Shown here: one piece after another, positions 52,541 to 61,971 of the stretch
Layout of the letters: each line of letters starts with the position of its first letter
Position numbering within the stretch: position 1 is the stretch's first letter
Assembly: GCA_002070115.1 (NCBI GenBank)
Contig: MWCO01000007.1
Coordinates: 1 to 64,000, forward strand
Reading direction: 5' to 3'
From: Deltaproteobacteria bacterium ADurb.Bin207
GTDB lineage: Bacteria; Myxococcota_A; Polyangia; Polyangiales; Polyangiaceae
DNA length: 64,000 bases
Notes under the pieces: generated by a model
What the model was told of the DNA's origin: nothing
What the model saw: only the letters and a program-made list of their open reading frames with translations
The model's database searches: none
Position numbers and translations under genes: made by a program

Positions 52541-53386
52541 TCATCCAAGCTGGTTCTCGTTTCCGGAGCCATCGTCGAAAACGCGGCCCGCTTGCGCCAT
52601 CAGGGTCCCACATCCCCCATTGGGTTCATTGCGGGCCAGGGAACTGCAACGCACTTCCAGACCCATGGCTCGCCAGGCTTCGACAACCTCTTCGTATCGC
52701 TTTTCCGCGGCCGGAAGAAAGTTGCCGTGGGCCACCGGATTGAACCGATAAAGATAGACAGACAAGCCAAGGCTTCGAGCGCGCTCCGAAAAGGCACCAG
52801 TCTGCTCCGCATCATCGTTGCCATCGCCGATGAGCAAATACGCAAGAGATAAACGACGTCGCCGGGAACGACTCAACCGCGGTACACATTGCTCCACCGT
52901 GTCGAACAATCGAGACAGCGACAAGCCATGGGGAACGAGCTTGCGCCTCATCGATTCGGTGCCCGCATGGACCGACAAGGTTAACCCGTTATGTGGTAAC
53001 CCCATGAAATGTTTCAGCTTTTCCTCGCTTCCCCCCGTTGTGGTCAAGCTTGGCGCCAGGTGGTGTTGGCGACACCAATGAAGCAGCGTCTCCACCGCCG
53101 CCGCGTTGTGCAAAGGCTCACCTACGCCCGAGACGGTGACGCGGCGAAGGGAGGGGGCCCACGATTGGGCTTGCTGCACCTGCGCGATCAGTTCTTCCGC
53201 GTGAAGGTTGCGCATCCAACCGCGACTTCCTGACGCGCAAAATGGGCATCCCACGGCGCAGCCCACCTGCGAAGAGATGCATAAAGTATGTTTCCGGTAC
53301 AACACCGCTTCCACCCACGCGCCGTCATCGAGTTCGACCGCGAATTTGGTGTTGAACTGGCTGCTGCTTCGAGGAATCAGACGCAC
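52541..53386 (-). CDS. Short RlmN/Cfr-like radical SAM protein
   Basis: A 281-residue radical SAM enzyme related to RlmN and Cfr, which methylate adenosine in 23S rRNA. It has the iron-sulfur motif CAVGCPFC in the expected context (CISSQVGCAVGCPFCASG), the VTVSGVGEPLHN segment, LSVHAGTESMRRKLVPHG, and a C-terminal GGCGTLMAQ like the RlmN GACGQL, which carries the methyl-carrying Cys. Compared with RlmN (about 350-400 residues) it lacks most of the N-terminal accessory domain; the open frame starts at 53386. It may have another substrate or be an accessory paralogue. Confidence 0.85.
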   Translation of the reverse strand: MRLIPRSSSQFNTKFAVELDDGAWVEAVLYRKHTLCISSQVGCAVGCPFCASGSRGWMRNLHAEELIAQVQQAQSWAPSLRRVTVSGVGEPLHNAAAVETLLHWCRQHHLAPSLTTTGGSEEKLKHFMGLPHNGLTLSVHAGTESMRRKLVPHGLSLSRLFDTVEQCVPRLSRSRRRRLSLAYLLIGDGNDDAEQTGAFSERARSLGLSVYLYRFNPVAHGNFLPAAEKRYEEVVEAWRAMGLEVRCSSLARNEPNGGCGTLMAQAGRVFDDGSGNENQLG

Positions 53387-53446: not shown

Positions 53447-56359
53447 TCACGGTGGTTGGGGGGAACGTCGACGGCGCACGAGCCGGTCCGCTCGTACCAA
53501 TATCTCGCTCGTGGATCCAATGGGGCAAATCGACTCACAAAAAGGTCGTCGGACGAAAAACGAAAGCAGCAGCAAGCCGCCCGTGATCCATAACACCCAG
53601 GGATTGACCGCATCGGCATGCTGATAGAGCCGCTGGACGATCCCTTCCCCTTCATGGACCGGACCAGGATCGATTCCAAACACCCACCAGATGACCAAGG
53701 CCAACGAGGGGATCCGCAACCACCAGGAGGCTTTTCCGAGCTTGCGCAACGAACTCGTCGAGGGAACCGACGCTTGTGCGAGACCCAACGGACATACGCG
53801 CTGGCAAAACCGTAAGTCTCCCAAGTTGGTCACGAGCGCCGAGGCGATGACGAATCGACGCAGAACCCCAAAGATACAAGGGCGCGGACATACGTGACAA
53901 AATAGATAGGGGATCGCAAACATGCAGCGTCCCAGGGGTTGAGCTGCTACGGGCAATAGGGCCAGCAAGCTGAGAAGGCGCAAGGGAGACACGCCGATCC
54001 GTTCGGCGAAGACGCGACTGCGGTGTTCCGCTTGGCGAATCCAACGGCGCCATGGCATGGGCTCGAAAGCTGACGCCATCGCGGCGGCCAAAACGAGGAT
54101 AGCGACAAGCCGATACCCATCGGAGTTGATGAAGCGCTGAAACGGGCCATGGGTGGATTGAATCGCAAGCAGGATCACCCCGCCGAGCAGCATCATGGGC
54201 AGGGGCATCCGAAAGGAGAGGGACTCGGCGCTGACCCGGGATCGGGTTACCAAAGCCACGAGGCTCACGGCTTTGCATCCCGCCACGGCCCATAAGGTTC
54301 CCGATATTCCTAACGTGGGAATCAGCCACGTGACGGAAACGAAGGCGGCAAGCGCCGCGCCCGCCAAGTCGAGGCCGTACACCGATGCCCCCACACCGGT
54401 CGGAAAAACCCCGTCCATTCGCGAGGCCACGGCGAATTGCCCTCCGGTGGCGGCACCCATCAGCAAAGCGGCCACGATGACCCCTGCGCGCGTCAGATCC
54501 GCCCCCGCTTGCATCATCGCATCCACGCCGACCGCCAAAGCCATCGCCACCCCGAGCTGCCACGCATCCATCAGCCATAATGCCCGAAAACGAGCGGCCC
54601 TTCGCATTCCCACGACCGTGGCCGCACAACTCGCCCCCATGAACAGCCCCGTCACCAGCGCCACATCGCGATACAGCGCGCCTACCGCCGTTTGAAATAC
54701 CAACATCAACGTGAGTTGCAGCGCGAGCCCTGAAAATCCCGTACTTGCCACCGCGAAAGACACCGGTTTCGAACGCGGATCGACCCAGGCCATCATCATC
54801 AAAATAGTTGATAACACTAGGAAAATTAGCGAATCCAGCCCGGTCTCGAGACGCTCGAAAGTAGCCTGCCGCGCCGCTGAAACGATAACCGGATGCGTGT
54901 CCGTGCTCGGACGCACGCTCCGCCCACTCCACAGCGCCGCCTGGTGAATGCGCTCGGTGGAAAGCCTATCATTGACCCACGCTTCGGTCAGGTAGCGCGA
55001 GTCGATCCCTCGCTGTTTCATGCGCAACAGAACCGTTTTCCCAACATCGGCGGGATCGATGAGCCGCGACGAAGACGCCACATACAGCGTTCGATCCCCC
55101 GGTAGAGCTAGGATATGCGGAAAAACCTCCTTCAACGTCGAGACCACCGTGCTGTGAAGATCCCGTTCTGCTTCCGTGGCGTATGCCGCAAAACCAGGAA
55201 GCGACACCACCAAAAGACCGTCGGAGGCCGTAGCTTTCGCAAGTTTTCGATAAAAAGATGTCGAGTATAGACGAGCCTCCGCCACGCTCGTCGGAAGCCC
55301 GGCGTTTACCACCAGCAAATCGAAGGCAGGCTCCTCATCGATGCCCGACCAGGCCCGAGCATCACTGGGCACGATCCGAACGCGTCCATCGGAAGCATCG
55401 GGGGCCCAGGATGAAATTACATCGGCGATCACCCGATCTCCCGCAAGAATCGTCAGATGGTCGATGCCGTGGGCCAGCAACGACGAAATCAGGTTTCCGG
55501 GGGGAGCGCCTACCAGCAGAATCCGTTTCGGACACGTGTGTAAGCATGCGGAAATATTAGCAATTTGTTCCGAGCCCTCGATGTCCGCGGGGATCAGAAT
55601 CGGTTGTCTTTGCAACATCACTTGTTGCTGACCCGTCTGTTGTGTCACGAGCACCGCGCCCCGAGGGCTCGAGGCGAGCTGTAACACCTGTTGTCCGGGG
55701 GCATGCCAGCGATAGGTGAGTCGGTCTACGGGGGCGATGGCGAGGGCGGCGCACGGCAGGAGGGCGGCGACGAACCAGCCGCGGCGGTGGGGGTCCGCTA
55801 GAAAAATGGCTCCCAAAAACGCGGTGGCGCTGACCAAAGACGCCACCTGAAACGGCAGAAGATGGTCGAGGATCACGGTGGAAAGCAGCGCTCCGGCGAT
55901 GGCTGACCCCAGGGTATCGAGCCAATAGGCCTGGGCCGAGACGACCCCCCCGTTCTCAATTTTTGCTGTATTTTCCAGTGGTTTGGCGAGCTGGCCGTAG
56001 AGCCAGCCCGAAAGGAAACACGCCGGGGCGAGAATGAAAATAGCGGCAAGCGCTACGGAAAATGAGCTGGGGACTTGACCGAGAGGTATCCACCCTACGC
56101 AGGCGCGGGCAGCCAGCAGCGTTGCCGCGACCGTGAGGCCATAGATGGTGAAACCAGCGGAAACCGTGGTTCGGCGAGCTGTTCGAGTCCGGCTTCCCAT
56201 GGCGCCCAGGGCCGTTTCGATCAGCCAGATCCCCATGAGCAATGCCACGACGGTTTCATCGCCGGCAGTGACGGCCATGCCCTCACGAATGGCCAGGACT
56301 TGGAGGGCGGCGGAGGCGGCGCCGAGACAAAGCAGGGGTAAGCGACGGGATTCGCCCAT
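53447..56359 (-). CDS. Membrane spermidine-synthase-like protein fused to a 4Fe-4S module
   Basis: A 970-residue fusion from the ATG at 56359. Residues about 1-240 are multiple hydrophobic helices like membrane-bound spermidine synthases; about 280-480 is a Rossmann SAM-type domain where the family GGGDGG loop is replaced by LLVGAPPGNLISSL; then about eight more helices (530-820). The C-terminal part has three Cys clusters of membrane polyferredoxins (FCHVCPRPC, FCQRVCPLG and FCESICPIG) between further helices, as in NapH/NosR-type electron carriers. The Rossmann loop change argues against ordinary aminopropyl transfer. Role unknown; a redox link is inferred. Confidence 0.85.
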   Translation of the reverse strand: MGESRRLPLLCLGAASAALQVLAIREGMAVTAGDETVVALLMGIWLIETALGAMGSRTRTARRTTVSAGFTIYGLTVAATLLAARACVGWIPLGQVPSSFSVALAAIFILAPACFLSGWLYGQLAKPLENTAKIENGGVVSAQAYWLDTLGSAIAGALLSTVILDHLLPFQVASLVSATAFLGAIFLADPHRRGWFVAALLPCAALAIAPVDRLTYRWHAPGQQVLQLASSPRGAVLVTQQTGQQQVMLQRQPILIPADIEGSEQIANISACLHTCPKRILLVGAPPGNLISSLLAHGIDHLTILAGDRVIADVISSWAPDASDGRVRIVPSDARAWSGIDEEPAFDLLVVNAGLPTSVAEARLYSTSFYRKLAKATASDGLLVVSLPGFAAYATEAERDLHSTVVSTLKEVFPHILALPGDRTLYVASSSRLIDPADVGKTVLLRMKQRGIDSRYLTEAWVNDRLSTERIHQAALWSGRSVRPSTDTHPVIVSAARQATFERLETGLDSLIFLVLSTILMMMAWVDPRSKPVSFAVASTGFSGLALQLTLMLVFQTAVGALYRDVALVTGLFMGASCAATVVGMRRAARFRALWLMDAWQLGVAMALAVGVDAMMQAGADLTRAGVIVAALLMGAATGGQFAVASRMDGVFPTGVGASVYGLDLAGAALAAFVSVTWLIPTLGISGTLWAVAGCKAVSLVALVTRSRVSAESLSFRMPLPMMLLGGVILLAIQSTHGPFQRFINSDGYRLVAILVLAAAMASAFEPMPWRRWIRQAEHRSRVFAERIGVSPLRLLSLLALLPVAAQPLGRCMFAIPYLFCHVCPRPCIFGVLRRFVIASALVTNLGDLRFCQRVCPLGLAQASVPSTSSLRKLGKASWWLRIPSLALVIWWVFGIDPGPVHEGEGIVQRLYQHADAVNPWVLWITGGLLLLSFFVRRPFCESICPIGSTSEILVRADRLVRRRRSPQPP

Positions 56360-56580
56360 CACTCGTTGGCCTCCGCTTTTCGCTTGACCGGGTGGTGGTT
56401 GGGTAGGGCGCGGTTGTTCTCCCCGATGAGGAAGGCACGGTGGGCGTATCCAGGCACGGTGATTCGACTCCCTTGCCAACATACCAGCCGATCGTCGCCG
56501 CGCCTATCCGAACCGTGGTCGGCCGCCACGCTCATGACGTGGCCTACCTTGGCAGGATCCGCTATCGTGTGGGTTCTTCG

Positions 56581-59500
56581 ATGTCTACGTCACGGACTAC
56601 CGCTCGATCGGCCGATACGCCTTTGCAGGGGGGAACGGTTCCGTCCGACGCGCCGGTTTCGGCTACGACGATCCCCAGCGCGGAGTTTCCGGATCGGTCG
56701 GCGACGGTACGTCGTCAGGTTTCTGCGGATTCCTTGGCGGAGGTATCCCAAGGGGCGCGGGGGCTTGCTCCGGGAACGCTCGTGTCGCCGTATCGGGTGG
56801 TACGGCTCGTGGGTCGTGGGGGCATGGGTGATGTGTATTTGGCGAGAGACACGCAGCTTGGAAGAAAAGTGGCTCTGAAGGTGGTTCGGCCTTCGGTGGT
56901 GGGCAATCGCGAGGAGGTGGCGAGATTTCTGTTGGAGGCTCGCATTACGGCGCGATTCAATCATCCCCATATCGTTACCGTGTACGGGGCTGGTGAATTC
57001 GAGGGGCAACCGTATGTGGCGCTCGAATACCTGGAGGGTCAAACGCTTCGCGCCCGAATGGATGAGCAGCGGCTTGGGGTTCGAGAGGTGATGCGTATCG
57101 GTCTTGCGGTGGCCGAAGCGTTGCAAGAAGCCCATCGACACGAAGTGTTGCATCGGGATCTCAAGCCCGAAAACATCTATTTGCCGCGCGATGGGCGATT
57201 GCGGGTGATGGATTTCGGCCTGGCCGTTCCTTTGCGTCTTCCAGAAGTGCTGGCGGAGGCGAGGGAACTGGATGAGTTGCCGGAAGGCATGGAGCAGGCG
57301 CTCAAAAAAAATATGGATCACGGTGGGATCGAGGGAACGCCTCTGTATATGGCACCAGAGCAATGGCGTGGACTCGGTTGTTCCACCACCACGGATTGCT
57401 GGGCTCTGGGTGCGGTGCTGTACGAACTTCTCAGCGGCTCGCCTCCCTACAACGAACAATCCAATATGTTGCAGTTGCTTCGCGTGTGTTCCGCGGACCC
57501 TGCTCCACGCCTGGCGCCCTTCGAAGCAGTGCCCGAACCGCTCGTCGAATTGATTGCCCGTTGCCTCGAAAAAGACCCGGCGAAACGTCCGCAATCCCAT
57601 GAAATTGCCCAGGATTTACATTCCATGCTGCATGAAGGCAGGCTTCGCTTGGAGGCGGAACAGTCGCCGTTTCGAGGCTTGCTTCCCTTTTCTGAAGACC
57701 AGGCAGACTTCTTTTATGGGCGCGATGATGAAATCGCGTCGATGCTCGAACGCATTCGACATGAGCCGCTGTTACCTGTCGTTGGCCCTTCTGGAGCAGG
57801 CAAAAGCTCTTTCGTCCAGGCGGGCCTGATCCCAAGACTACGAGAACATGGCCGGTGGATCGTGCTTCGCCTCCGTCCCGGTCGTGAACCTTTCGAAGCG
57901 TTGGCCATTCGTTTGACCCGCGGCGAGCATGACGGGACCAATCGCAGCGTTCATACCACCAGTCGGGGGGGGGGATCCGAGGAAGATACAAGGGAAAAAG
58001 AACGCGCGTTGAGTGTGCAACTATTTGAAAATCCGCCGTTTTTATCCTTTTCCCTCCATCAGATCGCCGAACAGGAAAACGCCGGAGTCTTGTTGTTCGT
58101 CGACCAGCTCGAGGAGATCTATACGCTGGCGAGCAACCCGGATGTGCGTCGCCGTTTCATGACGGCCGTGTGCGGTGCGGCCGATGACGTCGAGAGCCGT
58201 GTGCGGGTGGTGTTGACGCTTCGGGACGATTTTCTGGTTCGGTTGGCGGAGACGCCGGTGGTTCGGGAAGCGCTTGGGCACGTGACGGTATTGCGGACTC
58301 CGGGGCCGGAAGCGCTTCGGGACATTGTGATGACGCCGGTTCGTCTTGCTGGCTATCAGTTCGAAGATCAGTCGTTGGTGGAGGAGATGATCGAGACGGT
58401 GGGGGCTCAAGCGGGCGCGCTTCCTCTGCTGCAAGTCGCGGCCGCCCGGTGGTGGGAGGGGCGGGATCGAAAGAAGAAAATCCTTACCAAAAGCGCGTAT
58501 GAGGCCATGGGGGGAGTGGTAGGAGCGATTGTGAAGCAAGCCGATGGCGTGCTCGATGGGCTCACGCCCCGGCAATTGCGGGTGGCGCGGGAGATGTGTT
58601 TGCGCCTGGTCACGCCGGAGCATACGCGTCGCCTGGTCGTTCGCGAGGAATTGCTCGAGGGACTTGGGTCGGATGGGGAAGAGGTCTTGCGTCGCATGGT
58701 GCTGGGGCGGATTGTGGTTGCGCGAAGGGGGCGTTCCGAAAAGGGAGGCGATGTGGAATTCGTCCACGAGTCGCTGGTGAGTCATTGGACGCAATTGGTG
58801 CGATGGTTGGAAGGGAGCCGGGAGGAGATCGCGTTTGTAGCGGAAGTCGGCGCGGCGGCGGAGTTGTGGGACAAGCGAGGCAGGCCGAAAGAAGAGGTTT
58901 GGCGGGGGCCATCGCTGCACGCTGCGCTTGCCAAAGCCAGCCAGATACCGACGATGCCCGAGCGGGTGCGGGCTTTTCTCGAAGCGGGTCAGCGCCGAGA
59001 GCGTCGGGGATCTCGAAGACGCCGGGTCTTCGCGGGTGTGGCCTTTGGTGTGATGACGCTTGCGGCCACCATCCTTGCCTGGCAAGGCCAGGAGGCCGCC
59101 TCCCAGCGCCGTGTGGCGGAAAAAGAAAGAGAAATCGCTGAGTTGCAGCGATGGCGGGCAGAGGAAAGGCACGCGGAAGCCATGAGGGAGGGGGCGGAAG
59201 CCGCCATTCTTCGCGACAATATGCTCGAAGCACGGGCCAAAATCCGCGTTTCCCTCGAGGCCCAAGACACTCCCTCGTCTCGCGCTTTGTGGAGTCAGTT
59301 GCGGCATCAACCCTTACAAGCGGTCGTTCGACTTCCCACACGCGCCTGGACCGCCAAGTTCATGGACTCGGGACGTTCGGTGGCGGCCCTCGATATCCAG
59401 GGCTCCGTTCACACCATCGATGTGGCTACTACCCAAACCCGTCGCCTGGCGGATTGGAACGCCACCAGTGTGGCGGAAGCTTCTTTCTCCCAAGATGGTC

Positions 59501-61971
59501 GCTTTCTCGTTTCCACGAACAAGACCGGTGACTTGCGGGTGTGGGACCTGGAGCATCGATCCGTTGCCAAACTCGGCCATCCCCCCCCGCGCGCCACGTG
59601 GTTCGCCATATCCCCAAATGGACAGACAGTCGCTTCTTTGCACGCCACGGGGGCCATCCATCTTTGGGACGTTCGTTCCGGATCTCAAACAAAAACCTTT
59701 GATAATCAAGGGCTTGAAGTGACGCGGGCCACCTTCGATCCGTTGGCCCCGCGGCTGGCCAGCGGCGACGTTGCCGGGAATATACGTATCTGGACTCTGA
59801 CCACCGGAGAGAGCAAAACCTTGCCCCAGCGTCACGACAAGCTCGTATCCTGTCTCGCTTTCGATGCCCATGGCCGCCTGCTGGCGACGTCGGATTGGGG
59901 CGGACAGATACGGCTTTGGGATTCGCGGTCTGGCAAACTCCTCCGTACGTTGGAAGGCCATGTCGGTGCGGTATACAAGGTTCGGTTTCATCCCGACGGC
60001 CGACGCTTGGTTTCCGTAAGTGGTGATAAAACCGTACGTATTTGGCGAATCGACGACGGCTCTTTGCTTCATGTCCTCCGGGCGCACCAAGACCAGGTTT
60101 ATGATGTGGACTTCGATCCAACGGGTGAAACCCTGATGACGTTGGATGGGCTTGGGGCGCTGCGTTTATGGTCGTTGCAGGCCGCTTCGGGGACGATACG
60201 ATACGATGGGCATCGAGGCAGTGTGTTTGGCATTGCCATTCATCCGAACGAGCATCAACTCGCTTCCGCAAGTCGTGATTCGTCGATTCGTATTTGGAAC
60301 GTGACCACGGGGCATGTCGAAGCGGTGCTCGAAGGACACGAAGCAGGTGTTCTCGGTGTCGATTATAGTCCCGATGGCACGCGGCTCGTTTCCGGAGGCA
60401 ACGATAATACGGTGCGGCTGTGGGATACGCATCGACAGGTGCAACTCGCGGTGCTCAGCGGTCATCGGGATGCCATCGTGCATCCTGTTTTCAGTCCCGA
60501 TGGCAAGCTCATTGCCTCTCCCAGCAACGATGGCACTATCCGTATATGGTCTGCTGCCACGGGAGACAAGATCCATGAATTGGTTGGCCATACGGGAGGT
60601 GTCAACCAGGCCAGCTTCTCTCCTGATGGCCGAGTCCTTGCCACGGGCGCGGACGATGCCACGATTCGTTTGTGGGACGTGCAAACGGCAAAGCCGCTAC
60701 GTGTGCTCCGCGGACACCAATCTCCCGTGTATGGACCCCGGTTTGGAGCGTCGGAACATCTTTTGGTCTCGGCGGGATGGGATGGTGACACGCGGGTGTG
60801 GACGCTTCCTTCCGGGGAAAGCCGTGTCGTGCATCGATGTGAAGGATATGCTTTTTTCCCTACTTTCGATGCATCCCAGCATCATGTGGGGGCCACCTGC
60901 GCCGATGGGACCGCCGCGATCGTCGATCTGAAAAGCAATCTTGGGCTAACGCTTCAGGGCCATGTGGGCCACGTCACCGACATGGCTTACGCCCCTTCCG
61001 GGCGATGGGTCGCAACGTCGGGCGACGACGGCACCGTGCGACTGTGGTCGGCTACCAAGGGGCTGCCCGTTTGGCGCGGAATCATGTTGCGACAAGAGCC
61101 GGCGGAAGCATGGTCCCACGAAGGGGGGGTATCCCTCGACGGACAGCCGGTCGTCGAGAAAGCCTGGCAAAAAGCATTGCAATCACAGGCTTCGATCGCC
61201 TCCAGCTCCCGCGATACGCTCTGTTATCTCAGCCGTGATGGCATGCTGAAGCGCTGGGATCTGAAGGCCGATACGCAAAGCTGGCAGCATCCCATGCCCC
61301 ACGGAATCAAGGTGATGGCTCACGAAAGCCGATGTTTCGTCCTGCAAAGCGATGGCGAAGCCTCGTTGTGGAACGATCGGGGCGAGCGTCGGACCGTTGC
61401 CAGCGACGCCACGGCGATCGGGGTTCGGCAAGGTGAGGGGCTCGTGGCCGTTTCCGGAAAAATTCTGCGAACTGCCTTGGATGGGACGGTAACGAGCCAG
61501 ATTCCTGTCGATGAGCGCATCAGCGCGTTGGCCTACGTGGGAACGTACTTGGTGGCCGGCACATACCAGGGGGATATTCGGTTTCTGATGGATGAGAACA
61601 CGCGGGATCAACCGAGGGGAAGCCTTCCCGGACTTCCTTCCGCTTCCGTGCAGGCGTTGTTGGAAGGGCCAGCGGAAACCGTGGTTGCGGGATTCAGTAA
61701 TGGGATGGTTGGCGTGTGGGATGGTCGTCGACGCGCGCTGGTGGCGACGGAGCATCTGCACGGTAAGGTATTGTTTTTACAGCGAAATCGTGGAAAGGTG
61801 CATGCCTTGTCCGAGCTGGGGGACCGGGTCACGTTGGATCTCGAACTGCTCGAACGACCATATTGTGAAGTCATGCGTGATGTATGGGATCGTGTTCCCG
61901 TGGTGTGGGAAGAGGGGCGGGCCATTCGCAAAGGGGCGCCCCCCGAGCATCCGTGTTTGCGCGATCCGTAA
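56581..61971 (+). CDS. Ser/Thr kinase-STAND ATPase-WD40 protein
   Basis: A 1796-residue protein from the ATG at 56581. A disordered N terminus leads to a PknB-like kinase (about 68-345) with VGRGGMGDVYLA, VALKVV, HRDLKPENIYL and DFGLAVP. Next is a STAND-type ATPase (about 365-800) with the entry motif FYGRDDEI, the P-loop VGPSGAGKSSFVQAGLIPRL and FVDQLEEIYT. One transmembrane helix (about 815-833), a short coiled coil, and about a dozen WD40 repeats follow (VRLWD and IRIWS endings). Such proteins act as envelope-linked signal sensors in Myxococcota and Cyanobacteria; STAND-WD40 proteins may also serve defence. The WD40 part lies beyond the membrane helix. Confidence 0.92.
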   Translation: MSTSRTTARSADTPLQGGTVPSDAPVSATTIPSAEFPDRSATVRRQVSADSLAEVSQGARGLAPGTLVSPYRVVRLVGRGGMGDVYLARDTQLGRKVALKVVRPSVVGNREEVARFLLEARITARFNHPHIVTVYGAGEFEGQPYVALEYLEGQTLRARMDEQRLGVREVMRIGLAVAEALQEAHRHEVLHRDLKPENIYLPRDGRLRVMDFGLAVPLRLPEVLAEARELDELPEGMEQALKKNMDHGGIEGTPLYMAPEQWRGLGCSTTTDCWALGAVLYELLSGSPPYNEQSNMLQLLRVCSADPAPRLAPFEAVPEPLVELIARCLEKDPAKRPQSHEIAQDLHSMLHEGRLRLEAEQSPFRGLLPFSEDQADFFYGRDDEIASMLERIRHEPLLPVVGPSGAGKSSFVQAGLIPRLREHGRWIVLRLRPGREPFEALAIRLTRGEHDGTNRSVHTTSRGGGSEEDTREKERALSVQLFENPPFLSFSLHQIAEQENAGVLLFVDQLEEIYTLASNPDVRRRFMTAVCGAADDVESRVRVVLTLRDDFLVRLAETPVVREALGHVTVLRTPGPEALRDIVMTPVRLAGYQFEDQSLVEEMIETVGAQAGALPLLQVAAARWWEGRDRKKKILTKSAYEAMGGVVGAIVKQADGVLDGLTPRQLRVAREMCLRLVTPEHTRRLVVREELLEGLGSDGEEVLRRMVLGRIVVARRGRSEKGGDVEFVHESLVSHWTQLVRWLEGSREEIAFVAEVGAAAELWDKRGRPKEEVWRGPSLHAALAKASQIPTMPERVRAFLEAGQRRERRGSRRRRVFAGVAFGVMTLAATILAWQGQEAASQRRVAEKEREIAELQRWRAEERHAEAMREGAEAAILRDNMLEARAKIRVSLEAQDTPSSRALWSQLRHQPLQAVVRLPTRAWTAKFMDSGRSVAALDIQGSVHTIDVATTQTRRLADWNATSVAEASFSQDGRFLVSTNKTGDLRVWDLEHRSVAKLGHPPPRATWFAISPNGQTVASLHATGAIHLWDVRSGSQTKTFDNQGLEVTRATFDPLAPRLASGDVAGNIRIWTLTTGESKTLPQRHDKLVSCLAFDAHGRLLATSDWGGQIRLWDSRSGKLLRTLEGHVGAVYKVRFHPDGRRLVSVSGDKTVRIWRIDDGSLLHVLRAHQDQVYDVDFDPTGETLMTLDGLGALRLWSLQAASGTIRYDGHRGSVFGIAIHPNEHQLASASRDSSIRIWNVTTGHVEAVLEGHEAGVLGVDYSPDGTRLVSGGNDNTVRLWDTHRQVQLAVLSGHRDAIVHPVFSPDGKLIASPSNDGTIRIWSAATGDKIHELVGHTGGVNQASFSPDGRVLATGADDATIRLWDVQTAKPLRVLRGHQSPVYGPRFGASEHLLVSAGWDGDTRVWTLPSGESRVVHRCEGYAFFPTFDASQHHVGATCADGTAAIVDLKSNLGLTLQGHVGHVTDMAYAPSGRWVATSGDDGTVRLWSATKGLPVWRGIMLRQEPAEAWSHEGGVSLDGQPVVEKAWQKALQSQASIASSSRDTLCYLSRDGMLKRWDLKADTQSWQHPMPHGIKVMAHESRCFVLQSDGEASLWNDRGERRTVASDATAIGVRQGEGLVAVSGKILRTALDGTVTSQIPVDERISALAYVGTYLVAGTYQGDIRFLMDENTRDQPRGSLPGLPSASVQALLEGPAETVVAGFSNGMVGVWDGRRRALVATEHLHGKVLFLQRNRGKVHALSELGDRVTLDLELLERPYCEVMRDVWDRVPVVWEEGRAIRKGAPPEHPCLRDP

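Follow-up and report, generated by a model that had tools for sequence, protein, structure and literature searches.

A spermidine-synthase-like membrane protein fused to an eight-cysteine module and its probable association with AmrS, AMMECR1 and MEMO proteins bearing export signals

Introduction

The AmmeMemoRadiSam trio is made up of the radical-SAM enzyme AmrS together with AMMECR1 and MEMO; among its members are bacterial relatives of AMMECR1 and MEMO1, two human proteins linked to disease. To our knowledge the trio is uncharacterised and its function is not known. As a radical-SAM enzyme AmrS requires low-potential electrons for the cleavage of SAM, and radical-SAM enzymes are regarded as cytoplasmic, as this is where SAM and a low-potential reductant are found. 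Burroughs and colleagues are said to have extended the contexts of Memo to base and isoprenoid modification.

Whilst the AmmeMemoRadiSam proteins are one point of comparison for the protein described here, the membrane spermidine synthases and the NosR and NapH families are others. Spermidine synthase is not mentioned in two papers on flavinylation (PMC8238504, PMC11334425), and a passage of PMC7159879 cites Burroughs et al. 2019 (doi 10.1074/jbc.RA119.007595) for Memo-AMMECR1 systems. A search of the literature on AMMECR1 with radical SAM and on periplasmic radical SAM found no exported system, and neither an exported AmmeMemoRadiSam system nor a fusion of a synthase with an eight-Cys module was found described, with Burroughs et al. 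2019 lying outside this comparison, a paper that may already note exported forms.

The fusion gene

The window is the whole 64,000-nucleotide stretch of DNA analysed, and within it a single gene on the minus strand joins membrane helices and a spermidine-synthase fold to a cysteine-rich membrane module. Its features are as follows.

53447..56359, minus strand: fusion gene, 970 aa starting at Met42 of the longest ORF
55736..56341, minus strand: seven N-terminal membrane helices, residues 7-208 of the 970-aa form, N-terminus predicted inside (AF2 helices, positive-inside counts)
54845..55693, minus strand: spermidine-synthase-fold domain, residues 223-505, predicted periplasmic (Pfam, Foldseek, topology)
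55493..55513, minus strand: degenerate SAM loop VGAPPGN, GGGxG in true synthases (alignment to 3anx and homologues)
55355..55363, minus strand: invariant D-x-R (D374, R376), the adenine-side Asp position of synthases (alignment to 3anx)
55292..55306, minus strand: lost catalytic motif, NAGLP where synthases have DxxDP (alignment to 3anx and homologues)
54248..54841, minus strand: second set of membrane helices, residues 507-704 (AF2 helices, positive-inside counts)
53876..53926, minus strand: four-Cys motif C-x8-C-x2-C-x3-C (C853, C862, C865, C869), predicted periplasmic, candidate [4Fe-4S] site
53789..53806, minus strand: first CxxxCP pair (C893, C897), predicted cytoplasmic
53522..53539, minus strand: second CxxxCP pair (C982, C986), core of the Pfam Fer4_5 match, predicted cytoplasmic

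The gene lies in an uninterrupted ORF of 1011 aa (53447..56482), with an upstream ATG at 56482 that adds 41 residues. As residues 1-41 are not conserved among homologues, Met42 is the likelier start, and it is the one that the span 53447-56359 of the preliminary description implies. Full-length homologues of the fusion are found at 40-43% identity in G022, G015 and G397, a set that includes two other genera of the window genome's family at 43%, and more distantly in L092 (34%), L094 (32%) and L095 (23%), which comes from another phylum, a small one with 58 genomes in the collection searched. The distant homologues were recovered with an alignment-based scan of genome contigs; the fusion protein as a single query gave no match against the contigs of close relatives, nor did it in a search of PHROGs. 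Because full-length homologues in six genomes keep the whole architecture, the spermidine-synthase/Fe-S fusion can, on sequence grounds, be taken as confirmed, both real and conserved. The preliminary description of this DNA had helices and a Rossmann domain joined in one frame to a cysteine module and proposed a search for the same fusion in other Myxococcota; both the ORF and the six homologues, down to 23% identity, agree with it.

The spermidine-synthase-fold half

The synthase fold, a beta N-domain with a Rossmann domain, is recognised in the fusion protein by both Pfam and Foldseek. Spermine_synth is matched at residues 304-455 with 27.7 bits against a cut-off of 22.9, and the best Foldseek hits are spermidine synthases, the top one being 3anx with an E-value of 1.9e-9 and a TM-score of 0.67 by target. 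The AF2 model has a mean pLDDT of 74.5, with 70-90 across most of the helix and synthase parts, and places seven helices first, then the synthase domain and then the second helix set.

Two motifs expected of an active enzyme are missing. The Gly-rich dcSAM loop GGGxG is absent from the fusion and its homologues, which have VGAPPGN, VGVAPAG or VGAAPAF in its place, and the altered loop APPGN had been correctly picked out in the preliminary description. The catalytic Asp of DxxDP is also absent (NAGLP, QSMPP or SEPAP), and D374 and R376 are invariant across 14 diverse sequences. The score against the curated spermidine-synthase equivalog is 47.6 bits with a cut-off of 260, and every curated NCBIfam score of the protein is far under its cut-off. 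The alignments support a Rossmann fold that has been kept in a catalytically degenerate form.

The cysteine half and topology

The three Cys clusters that had been read as typical of NapH/NosR-like 4Fe-4S proteins are real, and the addition of C853 turns the first of them into a four-Cys group. Eight cysteines are invariant in seven sequences, in the arrangement C853-x8-C862-x2-C865-x3-C869, C893-x3-C897-P and C982-x3-C986-P, and Pfam Fer4_5 is matched at 960-1006 with 31.3 bits against a cut-off of 22. The ferredoxin motif CX2CX2CX3C does not occur among the 16 cysteines of the protein, and the scores against the curated families are low, being 12.1 for NosR (cut-off 1000) and 13.3 for napH (cut-off 213). 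A PDB profile search with the eight-Cys module returned no solved relative, and AF2 models the Cys region poorly, with a pLDDT of about 40-60.

Using the helix boundaries of AF2, K+R averages 20.9 in inside loops compared with 3.2 outside, with the same sign in 13 of 13 sequences, and when the count is continued to the C-terminus it is 16.4 compared with 4.3 in seven sequences. This predicts an N-terminus on the inside, followed by seven helices and an external synthase domain. It was suggested earlier that the Cys clusters be checked for a cytoplasmic position, and the charge distribution predicts one for the two CxxxCP pairs, whereas the four-Cys group 853-869 is predicted to be periplasmic. 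Sister proteins have an FMN_bind domain inserted behind a helix, at a point that is likewise outside in this prediction, and as FMN_bind acts outside the cytoplasm in NosR, RnfG and NqrC, the site of insertion agrees with the charge-based topology. A role in membrane electron transfer, with an old fold as sensor or scaffold, had also been put forward; the NapH/NosR-like cysteine module makes a redox role in the membrane likely, but the synthase domain is predicted to be periplasmic and would not be a cytoplasmic sensor.

Partners in other genomes

The cluster neighbours of the fusion elsewhere, which had been named as something to check, give a consistent set of partners, namely AmrS, AMMECR1 and MEMO in exported forms. 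AmrS adjoins or shares an ORF with four of the seven eight-Cys fusions: it follows the fusion gene directly in L090, L093 and L095, and in L092 a single ORF of 1400 aa contains the synthase/MFS part, the eight-Cys part, a Tat-like segment (DRRLFLRR) and AmrS, with the next gene encoding a MEMO-AMMECR1 protein that has an apparent lipobox (LAAC). The AF2 model of the Fe-S and AmrS stretch of L092 has a mean pLDDT of 57.7. The AmrS, AMMECR1 and MEMO partners exceed their curated cut-offs (TIGR04337, TIGR04335 and TIGR04336).

Twin-arginine motifs, such as SRRQFLKR, SRREFIKS and DRRRFLKR, are found on the AmrS copies that accompany the eight-Cys fusions and are missing from canonical copies. At the level of this motif, Tat-AmrS is present in all seven genomes with the eight-Cys fusion, and these copies retain the radical-SAM motif CxxxCxxC. 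AMMECR1 and/or MEMO, wherever found with the fusion, have N-termini of the lipoprotein type, again judged by motif. With a strict automatic rule a lipobox is detected in 15 of 24 system-associated AMMECR1/MEMO proteins, compared with 0 of 18 beside canonical AmrS; several of the nine that fail the rule have a lipobox by eye (LAAC in L092, CSGC in L206), which is a matter of judgement. Large genomes of the window genome's family (L137-L148) have a third class of AmrS-like proteins that score lower (about 190-270 bits), and in several of these proteins CxxCAHRC replaces CxxCPxxC.

The wider class of membrane protein was defined by profile, with members scoring at least 197 bits over their full length and generic fused MFS-synthases reaching at most 160 bits, which is a clean split. 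Within the family, Tat-AmrS is found in 8 of 108 genomes, and the class is in all 8 of these compared with 1 of the 100 others (p 2.6e-11, shared ancestry uncorrected). Across the phylum sample, with AmrS classes assigned by hand from tables of bit scores, non-canonical AmrS is present in 28 of 29 class-bearing genomes compared with at most 21 of 350 others (p about 6e-28, likewise uncorrected for shared ancestry). Judged from profile matches and gene neighbourhoods, these genomes show a class of MFS-like helices with a synthase-fold domain that is encoded with AmrS, AMMECR1 and MEMO, and its co-occurrence with AmrS and the partners is near-exclusive.

Three flavours of system

The system is found in three flavours. 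In type A the synthase/MFS part is joined to FMN_bind and a NosR-like Fe-S module, typically within one operon in which AmrS has no export signal and MEMO-AMMECR1 is a lipoprotein. In type B the synthase/MFS part is alone and paired with Tat-AmrS, and in type C, to which the window belongs, it is joined to the eight-Cys module and also paired with Tat-AmrS. Tat export of AmrS tracks the absence of the FMN module, 19/19 against 2/19 in the set. The exceptions are G114 and G041, with a membrane protein that has no redox domain and an AmrS without Tat, and G189, where no AmrS was found.

The preliminary description held that the fusion would be refuted if relatives encoded its halves as unrelated separate genes. 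This is so only in part, as type B has no Fe-S half and the halves are split only in G041, which has the synthase half alone and a separate FMN/Fer4_5 protein adjoining AmrS.

In other families of the phylum there is a recurrent operon (L164, L165, L167-L169, L172, L173) of a signal-less AmrS, a lipoprotein MEMO-AMMECR1 and a synthase/MFS-FMN_bind-NosR-like fusion of roughly 1200 aa. In L082 and L181 an FMN_bind and Fer4_5 protein without the synthase half adjoins AmrS. As the AmrS of type A is without an export signal, a general rule that FMN and Fe-S modules supply an AmrS in the periplasm was given up.

The loci of the window genome

In the window genome itself the fusion gene, on contig C7, is apart from the genes for AmrS and AMMECR1 (C1) and MEMO (C15), so these do not form one operon. 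Contig C1 has a Tat-AmrS (TIGR04337, 333 bits), with an N-terminus that reads MTDRRRFLKR, followed by an AMMECR1 (TIGR04335, 179 bits) with a lipoprotein-like N-terminus, and contig C15 has a MEMO with MHRRSFLITLPILCSGC. There is also a canonical AmrS without an export signal at C7:96954-97997. Each gene of the C1 locus (AmrS, AMMECR1, GbsR-like, HU, RNase R, kinase) has its counterpart in that of G015 at 54-90% identity, with 59% for AmrS, 63% for AMMECR1, 75% for the GbsR-like protein, 90% for HU and 54% for RNase R. As it is the fusion gene that heads the syntenic AmrS-AMMECR1 row in G015, the fusion gene of the window looks like a relocated member of a C1-type locus. The link between fusion and partners in this genome rests on synteny, nearest relatives and co-occurrence. 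The Mantel correlation, r 0.71 (0/5000 shuffles) with shared species ancestry left in, supports it weakly.

Two further genes flank the fusion. Directly downstream is an RlmN/Cfr-like radical-SAM protein of 281 aa (52541-53386, minus strand), which scores 115.7 bits on TIGR00048 (cut-off 290) with a profile match only from position 76. It was rejected as the partner, since the radical-SAM gene near the fusion elsewhere is AmrS and none of the other genomes examined has an RlmN-like gene adjoining the fusion. A Ser/Thr kinase with nSTAND1 and WD40 (56440-61971, plus strand, 1843 aa) runs divergently from the fusion gene, and its GTG start would overlap the fusion ORF if translation of the latter began at the ATG at 56482.

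Proposed role and alternatives

The fusion protein is very probably associated with an exported AmmeMemoRadiSam system. The best explanation, to which a probability of roughly 0.6 can be given, is that it forms the membrane part of an AmmeMemoRadiSam system working outside the cytoplasm and probably passes electrons outward. Judging by the cysteines, each set of four might hold one [4Fe-4S] cluster, and electrons taken up on the cytoplasmic side would cross the membrane, reach the four-Cys cluster in the periplasm and from it enter the Fe-S cluster of the AmrS exported by Tat; for this relay to AmrS the odds are about even. Tat exports folded, cofactor-loaded proteins, so the Tat route suits AmrS as a [4Fe-4S] enzyme. 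Since we know of no SAM supply in the periplasm, a SAM-handling step can also be proposed, if more weakly, in which the MFS-like helices and the dead periplasmic synthase fold would export, bind or hand over SAM, or might instead clear the products of SAM cleavage. A complete extracytoplasmic radical-SAM unit, with Tat-AmrS, lipoprotein AMMECR1/MEMO and one membrane protein supplying both electrons (as an Fe-S wire) and SAM (as a periplasmic carrier), is a tentative and less likely extension of this.

The other flavours complicate a simple relay. In type A the AmrS that goes with the redox module lacks an export signal, so the module cannot simply feed a periplasmic AmrS, and in type B Tat-AmrS is paired with a membrane protein without a redox domain, so electrons must come from elsewhere. 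These patterns mean that SAM handling and delivery to MEMO/AMMECR1 remain serious rivals.

The stronger of these would have transport or hand-over of SAM, substrate or product by the MFS-like helices and synthase fold as the core role, with the Fe-S part as a late add-on. Type B, where the synthase/MFS part alone is still paired with Tat-AmrS, fits this well, as does the invariance of D374 and R376 in 14 sequences despite the loss of the catalytic Asp. However, the Gly-rich SAM loop is degenerate and the eight invariant cysteines are left unexplained, and such a role could hold alongside the best explanation. As the whole answer it appears unlikely. Slightly less likely again is that the periplasmic MEMO/AMMECR1 lipoproteins, rather than AmrS, receive or supply the electrons, with AmrS working separately in either compartment. 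This would cover types A and C together, and in type A it is a signal-less AmrS and a lipoprotein MEMO-AMMECR1 that accompany a membrane protein with FMN and Fe-S. Yet the 19/19 against 2/19 tracking of Tat-AmrS with FMN absence indicates that the location of AmrS matters to the design, and in L092 it is AmrS, not MEMO/AMMECR1, to which the Fe-S part is fused.

It is improbable that the cysteines, instead of holding Fe-S clusters, act like those of DsbD/CcdA and keep partners in the periplasm reduced through a thiol-disulfide relay. The CHxC part does resemble a CxxC pair and there are cysteines on both sides of the membrane, but CxxxCP is the signature of Fer4_5, which is above its cut-off, two sets of four cysteines suit two [4Fe-4S] clusters, and profile searches of Pfam and NCBIfam found neither a thioredoxin nor a DsbD domain. 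That the protein is a working membrane-bound spermidine synthase (polyamine aminopropyltransferase) is far less probable, for although the fold and the Pfam match are those of the enzyme, the dcSAM loop and catalytic Asp are gone, the equivalog score is a fraction of its cut-off (47.6 vs 260), the domain is predicted to be periplasmic and no polyamine genes are among the genomic partners. A frameshift or assembly join, which had been named as what could undo the fusion and has only the fragmented assembly (220 contigs) in its favour, is refuted by the identical architecture of the six full-length homologues.

If the best explanation is true, a Tat-exported AmrS with an intact motif and a dedicated membrane partner would break the rule that radical-SAM enzymes are confined to the cytoplasm, and would raise the question of how SAM and electrons reach the outside. 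The AmmeMemoRadiSam trio could then be assigned to a compartment and a membrane partner, and its biochemistry would have a setting in which it can be tested. It is also a warning for annotation, as 'spermidine synthase-like' membrane proteins of this class are probably not polyamine enzymes.

Comparison with known systems

With the membrane spermidine synthases and fused MFS-spermidine synthases the fusion shares N-terminal helices and the synthase fold. The fusion class departs from the generic MFS-synthases in that a further set of helices follows its synthase domain, its SAM loop and catalytic Asp are gone, and its occurrence is linked to that of AmrS.

The likeness to the NosR and NapH families is in the Fer4_5 CxxxCP pairs at predicted cytoplasmic ends of helices. 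The fusion differs from these in having neither an FMN domain nor CX2CX2CX3C, and in an extra, predicted periplasmic, C-x8-C-x2-C-x3-C. The type A sisters are closer to NosR and NapH, as they do carry FMN_bind and have matches to TIGR01947 and TIGR02163.

With the AmmeMemoRadiSam system of TIGR04337, TIGR04335 and TIGR04336 there are in common the same three partners, each above its curated cut-off. What sets the exported set apart is its Tat and lipoprotein signals and a dedicated membrane protein, whereas the canonical set of the same phylum is without such signals.
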